This document shows positions 58,854 to 61,852 of a stretch of DNA of 64,000 bases, piece by piece. Both the position numbers and the translations under genes were made by a program. The DNA lies in the NCBI RefSeq assembly GCF_023008165.1, contig NZ_JAKQZA010000003.1, positions 248,001-312,000 on the forward strand, written 5' to 3'. Source of the DNA: Kordiimonas laminariae (GTDB lineage Bacteria > Pseudomonadota > Alphaproteobacteria > Sphingomonadales > Kordiimonadaceae). Within the stretch, counting starts at the first letter, position 1; each line of letters opens with the position of its first letter. The notes beneath the pieces were generated by a model. The model searched no databases. It was not told the origin of the DNA and worked only from the letters and a program-made list of their open reading frames with translations.

Positions 58854-60467
58854 ATGTCCGGGTTACTTGAAGAAACCAGAAAAGAACGTGAACGGTTTGT
58901 GGCCTTTGCTTTTGCTGCAGCCGAGATCTTTCTGGAACTGGACAATACAGGAAAGATTCTATTTGCTGGCGGCGCATCTGATCGCATCACACCACAAGGT
59001 AAAAGCCTTATTGGGGAAAGCATCGACAGCATCGTGGATAAAGATGATATCGATATCTATCATGCCCTTGTCACCCATCTGAGTCACAAAGGTCGTATCG
59101 GGCCTTTACCACTTCGCTTCAATACAAACGACAATAGATCAATTGCGCTGCGCGCCTTTGCACTGAATATGCCACAGCAAGAAGGTACTCATACCTTTCT
59201 TGCTTTACGCTCAGCGCCGCTTGGCACGAGTGTAAGCGATAGTGCTGTAGATGAGGAAACTGGCCTTCTCACACAAGATGCCTTTATGGAAATGGCATCC
59301 AGCACCATGGCAAGTACCCCAACTTCCAGCAATCTCTATATGACCACCGTGGCTGTTGATGGCCTCGAAGAAGCAAAAGAAAAATTTGGCCCACGATATA
59401 TGCGGCAACTTCTGAAGCGTGTTGCCGCCCATATGAAAACCCTGTCTGTTGACGGACAGTCCGCAAGCCAGATTGGGGAAAAAGAATTTGCCTTCCTGCA
59501 CAAGAACAAAGCAGATGGTGAACACCTAACCAATAGCCTTAAATCCGTCGACGAAAACGTAACTCTGACAGCCAGCAGTGCAACGATTTCCGCTGAAGGG
59601 GGCGATGTTTCTGAAGATCAGATTTTGAGAACACTTTCCTATATTCTCAATCAATTCTGTAAAGACCCAAAGAATGTTACTTTCGAATCTCTAACTAATG
59701 CCTATGAGGACATGGCGGGTGCTGCACAAAAACGTGTCACCAACATGCGCAGCATGATAGAAAGCGGTAACTTCAACATCGCTTTCCAGCCAGTGCTTGA
59801 TCTGAAAACCGGTGATATTCATCATAACGAAGTACTCTCCCGCTTTAACAACAATATGGGTGATAGCACGCCTCTTGAGGTAATCCGCTTCGCTGAAGAT
59901 GTTGGCATTATTGAAGAATTCGACATTGCTCTATGCCATAAAGCCATTGATTATATCCGTAAAATGAAAAAGCTGGGAACCCCAGTTACGCTTGCTGTGA
60001 ACCTGTCCGGGCGTACGCTAGACAGCGGCAGGTTTGTAGATCCTTTGATGAAAACACTTCTGAGTGCAAAAGATATTGCCCACTCACTATTGCTTGAGCT
60101 TACCGAAACCACAGGTGTAGAGAATTTTGAAAAGGTCGAAGCAATCCTGAATGACCTGAAAGCAGCCAATTACCGCGTTTGCCTTGATGATTTTGGTGCG
60201 GGTGCTGCCGGGTACCAATATCTTAGGGCTTTCAATGTCGATTTTGTAAAAATTGACGGCGCTTACGTTCAAGATATGAATGCGCCAGGTTATCGCCCCA
60301 CATTCCTGCTTTCTATCGTGAAGCTCTGTAATGATCTGGGCGTAAAAACTATTGGCGAGCACGTAGAGAATAAATTCCAGGCTGAATTCTTGAAAACGCT
60401 TGGTGTTGACTTCGGCCAGGGCTATCATTTCGGGAAACCGGATTTCACACCAAGAACAAACCTCTAA
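58854..60467 (+). CDS. PAS/degenerate GGDEF/EAL protein
   Basis: 537 residues. Residues about 15-110 resemble a PAS domain, about 130-275 a GGDEF-like fold with no GGDEF motif, and about 290-535 an EAL domain. The EAL motif itself reads EVL (HNEVLSRF), while the other catalytic residues are kept: Asn in VNLSG, Glu in LELTETT, DDFGAG, Lys in VKIDG, Glu in GEHVEN, Gln in GQGYHFGKP. It may therefore still cleave c-di-GMP or be a c-di-GMP binder. The small membrane gene downstream begins two bases after its stop. Confidence 0.85.
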   Translation: MSGLLEETRKERERFVAFAFAAAEIFLELDNTGKILFAGGASDRITPQGKSLIGESIDSIVDKDDIDIYHALVTHLSHKGRIGPLPLRFNTNDNRSIALRAFALNMPQQEGTHTFLALRSAPLGTSVSDSAVDEETGLLTQDAFMEMASSTMASTPTSSNLYMTTVAVDGLEEAKEKFGPRYMRQLLKRVAAHMKTLSVDGQSASQIGEKEFAFLHKNKADGEHLTNSLKSVDENVTLTASSATISAEGGDVSEDQILRTLSYILNQFCKDPKNVTFESLTNAYEDMAGAAQKRVTNMRSMIESGNFNIAFQPVLDLKTGDIHHNEVLSRFNNNMGDSTPLEVIRFAEDVGIIEEFDIALCHKAIDYIRKMKKLGTPVTLAVNLSGRTLDSGRFVDPLMKTLLSAKDIAHSLLLELTETTGVENFEKVEAILNDLKAANYRVCLDDFGAGAAGYQYLRAFNVDFVKIDGAYVQDMNAPGYRPTFLLSIVKLCNDLGVKTIGEHVENKFQAEFLKTLGVDFGQGYHFGKPDFTPRTNL

Positions 60468-60701: not shown

Positions 60702-61535
60702 TTAGCTTGCAGGTTCTTCTTCAGCAGCAGCTTCTTCGAGCGAGGTTTCAAACATTTTCATGCCGAAACGTGCATATATCACAGCCCAAAATCTCGACCG
60801 AAACAATCTACGCTTCCCTGTTTTACCAACAGAAAGATAAACACCTGAAGGGTGGCGGTGCACATATTTAGCCACCTCCGTAGACTCTTCCAACAACTGA
60901 TCCTTCACCTTGCTAGACAAGCGTACTCTATGCTTCTGCATTGGCTTATGACGCTGGCGCGGCTTACGTCCCTGTTTAAACCTATACATCTTCAACCAAA
61001 CAACAAAGACAACAATCCCTATCCCAAGGATCATCATGAAGGTACTTAACAGGTAGATGTAATCAAACTCATCACCCATTTCTATCCGGCTTACTGTTTC
61101 ATCAAATGCTTGATCAACTGTGAGACTGGAATCGGTCGTCTCGCCCTCTACACGGAAGCTTAGGATGAGGCCATCACGCCTATCGAAACCCGACAAAATC
61201 CCGTTACCACCAAAAACACTGACAAACCCATTAGAAGCGACAGTCACCCCATATAATGGGTCACCTGAACATTTCACTTTCAAATCGATCAGATTAGGAC
61301 GCTGTTGGAAAACCTGATAATCAGTAACCCGAGTACAGCGGTAACGAAAAAGCTGGATAATATCTCGGAGCTGCAATGCGAGGTTTTCCGGTAAAACTCC
61401 TCGATTGATGCCAGCATATAGATCAAGCGACATTTGCCTTGGATCAGTTTCATTCAAACCGCTCTGTGCTTGAGCAGATGAAAAACCAACTGATAGAAAA
61501 CCTGTAAGTATCAATATTCGCAGCAGATTTCGCAT
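60702..61535 (-). CDS. exported single-helix membrane protein of unknown function
   Basis: 277 residues. Signal peptide to about residue 24 (AQAQ), a beta-like periplasmic domain with two Cys (RYRCTR and VKCSGD), one membrane helix around 162-185, then a strongly basic cytosolic region (KQGRKPRQRHKPMQKHR) and an acidic tail. No domain recognised. Convergent with the EAL pair. Downstream of a candidate sRNA on the same strand. Confidence 0.6.
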   Translation of the reverse strand: MRNLLRILILTGFLSVGFSSAQAQSGLNETDPRQMSLDLYAGINRGVLPENLALQLRDIIQLFRYRCTRVTDYQVFQQRPNLIDLKVKCSGDPLYGVTVASNGFVSVFGGNGILSGFDRRDGLILSFRVEGETTDSSLTVDQAFDETVSRIEMGDEFDYIYLLSTFMMILGIGIVVFVVWLKMYRFKQGRKPRQRHKPMQKHRVRLSSKVKDQLLEESTEVAKYVHRHPSGVYLSVGKTGKRRLFRSRFWAVIYARFGMKMFETSLEEAAAEEEPAS

Positions 61536-61618
61536 AATATTACCCGCTTGTTACCTATAGCCCATTGAAAAACATACCGGTCAACAATGCAATCATTATT
61601 CGAGTTTGGAAGAAGCAT

Positions 61619-61697
61619 AAAAAAACGGAACCGCATTCGGGGGAGGACATGCGGTTCCGCGCGACACAGTCAGATCAAGGGAGCTATTAGGCTGTAT
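61619..61697 (-). ncRNA. candidate small RNA with CCUCCCCC terminator loop
   Basis: On the minus strand a perfect promoter (below) would start transcription near 61697; about 80 bases on, an 11-bp stem CGGAACCGCAT / ATGCGGTTCCG (61626-61636 with 61649-61659) closes a 12-base loop GTCCTCCCCCGA, followed by seven T (61619-61625). This is an intrinsic terminator whose loop can pair with Shine-Dalgarno sequences, the layout of the CCUCC-loop sRNAs of alphaproteobacteria. No ORF fits well. It lies in the gap between the lepA terminator and the exported-protein gene. Confidence 0.6.
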
Positions 61698-61702
61698 CAG
61701 CA

Positions 61703-61731
61703 GTATTAGGTTCTCAAACTTATATTAACAA
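61703..61731 (-). promoter_or_regulatory. promoter of the candidate sRNA
   Basis: TTGTTA (61726-61731), 17 bases, TAATAC (61703-61708): near-consensus with ideal spacing. Confidence 0.6.
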
Positions 61732-61739
61732 CACGTTAA
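61725..61739. promoter_or_regulatory. CtrA-type box over the sRNA promoter
   Basis: TTAACAACACGTTAA is a perfect TTAA-N7-TTAA, overlapping the -35 element of the sRNA promoter, where CtrA usually activates. Confidence 0.55.
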
Positions 61740-61789
61740 AAAAATATATTCTATGCCTTGTTTTTAGAAAATCTCTCCAAAAAGCATAA

Positions 61790-61816
61790 AAAATCCCGCC
61801 TATTTGAAATAGGCGG
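61790..61816 (-). terminator. intrinsic terminator of lepA
   Basis: On the minus strand CCGCCTATT / AATAGGCGG with a three-base loop, then a run of T. Ends lepA transcription before the candidate sRNA. Confidence 0.9.
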
Positions 61817-61852
61817 AATGTTTAGCTTGAGAAAATTGATCTGATTCTATCT

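Follow-up and report, generated by a model that had tools for sequence, protein, structure and literature searches.

A conserved small RNA gene with a CtrA-type promoter box and two C-rich loops in Kordiimonadaceae

The CtrA network has been studied mainly in Caulobacter and rhizobia. That it extends to non-coding RNA has already been reported: six non-coding RNAs figure among the start sites that carry a CtrA motif and are enriched in ChIP (Zhou et al. 2015, PMC4287350), and full CtrA sites are described at R0025, R0094 and R0171 (Beroual et al. 2018, PMC5988900). CcnA (CCNA_R0094) of Caulobacter crescentus is reported to contact GGGG stretches near ribosome-binding sites through a CCCC loop (PMC8959179), and EcpR1 of Sinorhizobium is described as targeting the cell-cycle mRNAs gcrA and dnaA (PMC4414408). 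An earlier note on the DNA considered here had presented direct CtrA control over an RNA with an anti-Shine-Dalgarno loop as a novelty; with CtrA-controlled non-coding RNAs, CcnA included, already in print, this part of the proposal has to be given up.

The DNA in question, hereafter the window, is a stretch of 64,000 nt from Kordiimonas laminariae (GCF_023008165.1, NZ_JAKQZA010000003.1, positions 248,001-312,000 of the forward strand). In the GTDB lineage of this source, family, order and class are Kordiimonadaceae, Sphingomonadales and Alphaproteobacteria. The minus-strand locus described below is best read as a CtrA-activated, trans-acting sRNA that would pair with Shine-Dalgarno regions, a reading that the sequence comparisons lead us to favour with some reserve. 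No description of this Kordiimonas sRNA family was found in the literature on CtrA, on alphaproteobacterial sRNAs or on Kordiimonas; as far as our searches reach, it is an undescribed family, with a strongly conserved promoter box of the CtrA type.

The small RNA gene and its distribution

A covariance model match (E 4.8e-19) places a candidate sRNA gene of about 84 nt on the minus strand at 61617..61700, its start being set by the conserved block. Hairpin 1, at 61662..61698 (minus strand; consensus and fold), is closed by GAUACAG and CUGUGUC, between which the loop contains AGCUCCCUUGAUCUGA. The full loop reads AGCUCCCUUGAUC and is the best conserved portion of the sRNA, with AGCUCCCUU invariant to nearly invariant among homologues. 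Hairpin 2, which includes the terminator, lies at 61619..61659 (minus strand; sequence and fold): the stem arms at 61649-61659 and 61626-61636 form 11 bp, the 12-nt loop GUCCUCCCCCGA occupies 61637-61648, and a run of seven U follows at 61619-61625. Both loops of the sRNA are thus C-rich, with AGCUCCCUU in hairpin 1 and UCCUCCCCC in the terminator hairpin, and the consensus structure leaves AGCUCCCUU and the C-run of hairpin 2 unpaired. The segment 61617-61703 folds with a z of -4.86, none of 200 shuffles being equally stable, and single-sequence folds are mostly concordant, the exception being locus L089, in which the minimum-energy fold lacks hairpin 1. The consensus comprises 18 pairs; compensatory two-sided changes are seen in four of them, all in hairpin 2, and the pairs of hairpin 1 vary on one side only.

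The TTAA-N7-TTAA box, the -35/-10 pair spaced by 17 bases, the 11-bp stem and the seven U are all where the earlier note had put them. It had also placed a lepA terminator just upstream, and one is predicted at 61793..61819 (minus strand; terminator scan), separating the sRNA unit from lepA. Its terminator stem-loop is likewise present, but hairpin 1 had been overlooked and the RNA has two hairpins. The locus has its own promoter and terminator and a conserved RNA, and on reading the sequence no reading frame is found in it; a small protein was considered and rejected, as the same reading showed no start codon that is conserved and accompanied by a ribosome site. This minus-strand locus is almost certainly a real sRNA gene, and its sequence supports the picture originally drawn of a self-contained unit in which a CtrA-type box overlies the -35 region and a loop carries CCUCC.

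In a blastn search with a 161-base query, matches at E 5.3e-8 or better were obtained in 26 of 59 genomes, our own included. The entire query aligned at 99% in a near twin (G013), and in eight relatives a block of 85-92 bases matched, with 93-99% identity, query bases 1-58 lying outside it. Conservation of the RNA while the neighbouring non-coding DNA diverges supports the existence of an sRNA gene. At E up to 0.01, covariance model R1, made from 27 sequences with the promoter bases excluded, matched 33 of the 296 order genomes searched and 5 of 289 from the class. For model R2, in which four more distant homologues were included, the figures are 34 of 396 and 6 of 385, the own genome being counted throughout, and 31 of the 34 order matches have E < 3e-8. 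By family, the 31 homologues are distributed over the Kordiimonadaceae (26 of 29 genomes) and two further families, f7 (2) and f2 (3). R2 gave no match in three Kordiimonadaceae genomes, G010 (83% complete), G025 and G026, nor in at least three genomes of f2 (G029, G036, G047). The pattern GATACAGC-N(3-9)-AGCTCCC, searched in 15 genomes, hit 5 against 1 in the reversed control and was absent from G010, G025 and G026.

Weaker matches were set aside. Three R2 matches in the order have E values of 1e-3 to 7e-3; apart from the one in G152 they were inspected, and these two are unrelated and lack the box. All five class matches to R2 other than our own (E 2.6e-4 to 1e-2) were inspected and none has the box, which is missing also from the R1 class match in G511. 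No credible homologue outside the three families was found with R2 among the 385 class genomes, a count in which weak homologues may be missed because searches over more than 40 genomes are filtered more strictly. A pattern scan of genome contigs returned 21 records, 19 of which coincide in length with contigs of the genome set. Record L042 comes from a Kordiimonadaceae bin and carries lepA; L041, from a Verrucomicrobiales bin, was discarded as a chance match, hairpin 1 being absent and no related neighbour present. Stem and loop, on the conservation of which the original proposal had been made to depend, are both kept among homologues. The expectation of a conserved loop on a variable stem is borne out between families but not within the Kordiimonadaceae, where the terminator stem is nearly fixed. 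Elsewhere in the class, a 1.3-Mb genome (G738) contains an unrelated-looking two-hairpin RNA with a U-run (L161, 1501-1582, plus strand); its loops, ACCUCCCCCC and CUCCCCCCC, are C-rich, and no TTWA-N7-TTAA box is seen upstream.

The CtrA-type box and the promoter

The CtrA-type box TTAACGTGTTGTTAA (TTAA-N7-TTAA; 61725..61739, minus strand, motif scan) covers the -35 region of a weak core promoter, TTGTTA-N17-TAATAC, read from the sequence at 61703..61731 on the same strand. The -35 element TTGTTA is at 61726-61731 and the -10 element TAATAC at 61703-61708, with a spacing of 17 bases; in a consensus promoter scan this pair fell below the threshold and was not listed. In many relatives TATAA stands instead, about 5 bases farther upstream; the window and the near twin lack it.

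A single TTAA-N7-TTAA box in 64 kb is within chance, the window containing two such boxes against 1.75 expected. What goes beyond chance in the aligned homologues is the conservation of the box at a fixed spacing. Counted from the first base of the covariance model, 30 of the 31 homologues have an exact TTWA-N7-TTAA, all at one spacing (-41 to -38). In the first aligned set it stands at -41 to -39 in all 27 loci, and in the four homologues first detected by model R1, from which promoter bases were excluded, it is exact in three (G017, G056, G034) and has one mismatch in the fourth (TTAG-N7-TTAA in G052). Over 29 loci, the near-duplicates L010 and L022 having been dropped, mean pairwise identity amounts to 0.95 for the eight box positions, as compared to 0.32 for the 30-base stretch upstream and 0.27 immediately downstream. 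The consensus of the box is nearly TTTACC-N5-TTAAC.

In Caulobacter, a full CtrA motif near -35 is associated with activation in predivisional cells, and the CtrA site of ctrA promoter P2 is given as beginning at -39 (PMC4287350). The window has such a full motif near -35, and the spacing of the sRNA box agrees with the CtrA site of P2. All 29 Kordiimonadaceae genomes encode CtrA, with 75-79% identity to the Caulobacter protein, and all 29 have GcrA as well. It is very likely that CtrA or a regulator of CtrA's specificity acts on the sRNA promoter.

In the own genome, the strict motif TTWACY-N5-TTAAC shows no enrichment: it occurs at 11 places, versus 14 in the reversed control, and the sRNA box there does not match this strict form. 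The corresponding counts are 4 versus 2 in G012 and 10 versus 3 in G021, the sRNA promoter being included in each. Within 350 nt upstream of ctrA, the N7 box was found in 1 of 28 genomes only. In L108, L112, L116 and others, repeats of TTAACC-N4-TTAAC (TTAA-N6-TTAA) replace it; this N6 form is clear before ctrA in L112 and L116, and in five more it is cut short at the edge of the stretch inspected. An N6-spaced form is also reported at Caulobacter podJ (PMC4287350). As a separate observation, a strict CtrA-type motif (near 1501) lies 100-125 bases before orthologous genes in L279 (G000) and L269 (G012). Their protein begins YPEERxALFIDGANLYATARALDMEIDYKSL and is presumably NYN/LabA-like.

Possible action, neighbouring genes and competing readings

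If the locus works as proposed, phosphorylated CtrA (CtrA~P) would bind the box and turn on the sRNA gene in predivisional cells. Hfq, which is present in 29 of 29 Kordiimonadaceae genomes, would probably hold the sRNA at its U-tail, leaving the exposed C-rich loops AGCUCCCUU and UCCUCCCCC to pair with purine-rich Shine-Dalgarno regions. Such pairing would mostly lower translation and provide CtrA with a post-transcriptional arm. That the sRNA acts mainly by pairing at ribosome-binding sites is probable by analogy: the C-rich loops point to translation control because the loops of NfeR1, AbcR1/2, EcpR1 and CcnA act in this way.

Tests for mRNA targets covered 8-base seeds before ATG in six genomes and a few individual genes. 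In the six genomes, AAGGGAGC is followed by ATG 2-13 bases on at 107 places, compared to 23 in the reversed control, an excess that any Shine-Dalgarno-like word would give. The analysis took in 101 of these places, the remaining 6 overlapping them. Open frames of at least 60 aa number 58 at the AAGGGAGC places, with three clusters that each comprise two of the six genomes and that by eye are S18-like, ATP-synthase-b-like and a protein without assigned identity; no target with the AAGGGAGC seed is conserved in more than two of the six. An EAL-domain gene at 58854-60467 (plus strand) has GGGGGG directly before its start, and GGGG was present in all seven loci of a first search. A wider search gave 37 loci, with starts resolved for 23, and the gene was rejected as a conserved target: a G-run recurs in a sub-clade, but the orthologues in G002, G004, G005, G007 and G009 lack GGGG. 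Within the window, GGGG precedes the start of 7 of 43 genes. The start region of ctrA is unremarkable, 15 of the 43 window genes pairing with the sRNA at least as well, and for the candidate gcrA starts were resolved in 10 of 29 loci.

Several other readings of the locus have to be weighed. The sRNA might be a cis-acting leader, in which the CtrA promoter drives the gene of a 277-aa protein and the hairpins, lying in the 5' UTR of that gene, form an attenuator or a regulated terminator. This gene, at 60702..61535 (minus strand; neighbour search), is mentioned as context; the protein matches no Pfam or NCBIfam model above the cut-off, and by eye it has a signal-peptide-like start and one membrane stretch. 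A leader would suit its position: it starts 81 bases past the U-run in the window, and in 25 of the 30 homologous loci it follows the sRNA on the same strand; these loci were searched over a flank of about 1.5 kb, leaving out L094 with its 601 bases, and lepA is within the flank in 21. However, the sRNA is kept in the five loci where the 277-aa gene was not found in the flank (L021, L022, L033, L036 and L088, belonging to genera g4 and g6 and family f2) and is therefore not simply the leader of that gene. As, moreover, the terminator is strong in the fold and an alternative antiterminator pairing is not apparent on reading, regulation in cis is unlikely. In the 8-kb records L055 and L040, a peptidase-like gene stands downstream instead.

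It is also conceivable that the RNA is a real sRNA with anti-Shine-Dalgarno loops but that some other regulator binds its box, or that CtrA acts there as a repressor. The lack of enrichment of the strict motif in the own genome and of the N7 form upstream of ctrA in 27 of 28 genomes would be in line with this. The presence in all 29 genomes of a CtrA closely similar to that of Caulobacter nevertheless makes it improbable, as does the full palindrome near -35, which is the activator position in Caulobacter, where repressor-type CtrA half sites are described as overlying the -10 (PMC4287350). Finally, a CtrA-driven RNA could mainly bind a protein or sponge other RNAs rather than pair with mRNA starts. 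A conserved mRNA target was not found with the 8-base seeds in six genomes, at ctrA or at the EAL gene, as such a role would have it, but the unpaired loops keep their sequence, AGCUCCCUU most of all, in agreement with base pairing, and the protein-binding or sponging role is left with little probability.

We thus retain the reading as a CtrA-activated sRNA that would pair with Shine-Dalgarno regions. A CtrA-box sRNA kept in the Kordiimonadaceae and two other families would extend post-transcriptional control in the CtrA circuit elsewhere, and the locus offers a compact test case, made up of a single box, a gene of about 84 nt and two loops. More tentatively, the three families may have in common a dedicated CtrA-to-sRNA arm, in which promoter geometry and loop seed are the same throughout; this arm would brake the translation of many mRNAs in predivisional cells and would have arisen independently of CcnA; we regard this as possible but somewhat doubtful. 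If true, it would mean that CtrA recruited anti-Shine-Dalgarno RNAs more than once.

Relation to described small RNAs

Searched against Rfam up to E 5, the 2-kb stretch around the sRNA gave four matches at chance level, none on the strand and at the place of the RNA, and none to ar14. For 18 homologous loci, searched up to E 10, there were 11 matches, two of which lie on the sRNA and its strand: ar14 (RF02344) on L088, the sole locus matched by this family (31.5 bits, E 0.038, cut-off 58.8), and Pseudomon-1/ErsA on L084 (23.5 bits, E 2.1, cut-off 50). No Rfam family, and none of the AbcR type, reached its cut-off on the sRNA in the window or in these 18 loci.

The CcsR or cuckoo RNAs of Rhodobacter have C-rich loop motifs, as does the Kordiimonas sRNA. 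Unlike it, they are transcribed together with a DUF1127 gene, and from an RpoH promoter, according to the description in PMC10253847. AbcR1 and AbcR2 of Sinorhizobium resemble it in having two anti-Shine-Dalgarno motifs, CUCCUCCC in the loop of the 5' hairpin and in addition UUCCCCUC; they are however reported to be 114-121 nt long, with the second motif between the hairpins, and to be controlled by LsrB (PMC8844928). EcpR1, also from Sinorhizobium, likewise has two hairpins, a strongly conserved loop 1 and a terminator loop of the UCCUC type, but its account places it in the stringent-response regulon, describes it from Rhizobiales and gives its loop motif as UCCGCCGCAUCU (PMC4414408); this motif is absent from loop 1 of the Kordiimonas sRNA, which reads AGCUCCCUUGAUC. 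In alpha-r14/NfeR1, as described, unpaired anti-Shine-Dalgarno motifs silence mRNAs at the ribosome site, as proposed here, but NfeR1 has three hairpins, each with CCUCCUCCC, and is controlled by LsrB and NtrC (PMC10746234), whereas the Kordiimonas RNA has two, with the loops AGCUCCCUUGAUC and UCCUCCCCC.

CcnA shares with the Kordiimonas sRNA a CtrA box in the promoter and a C-rich loop (PMC8959179). The two are compared here by description; R1 and R2 gave no credible match in draws of 289 and 385 genomes from the class. CcnA is reported to be 182 nt long and to lie within the replication origin (PMC8959179), whereas the Kordiimonas sRNA, of about 84 nt, is intergenic and usually has lepA or the 277-aa gene as its neighbour.
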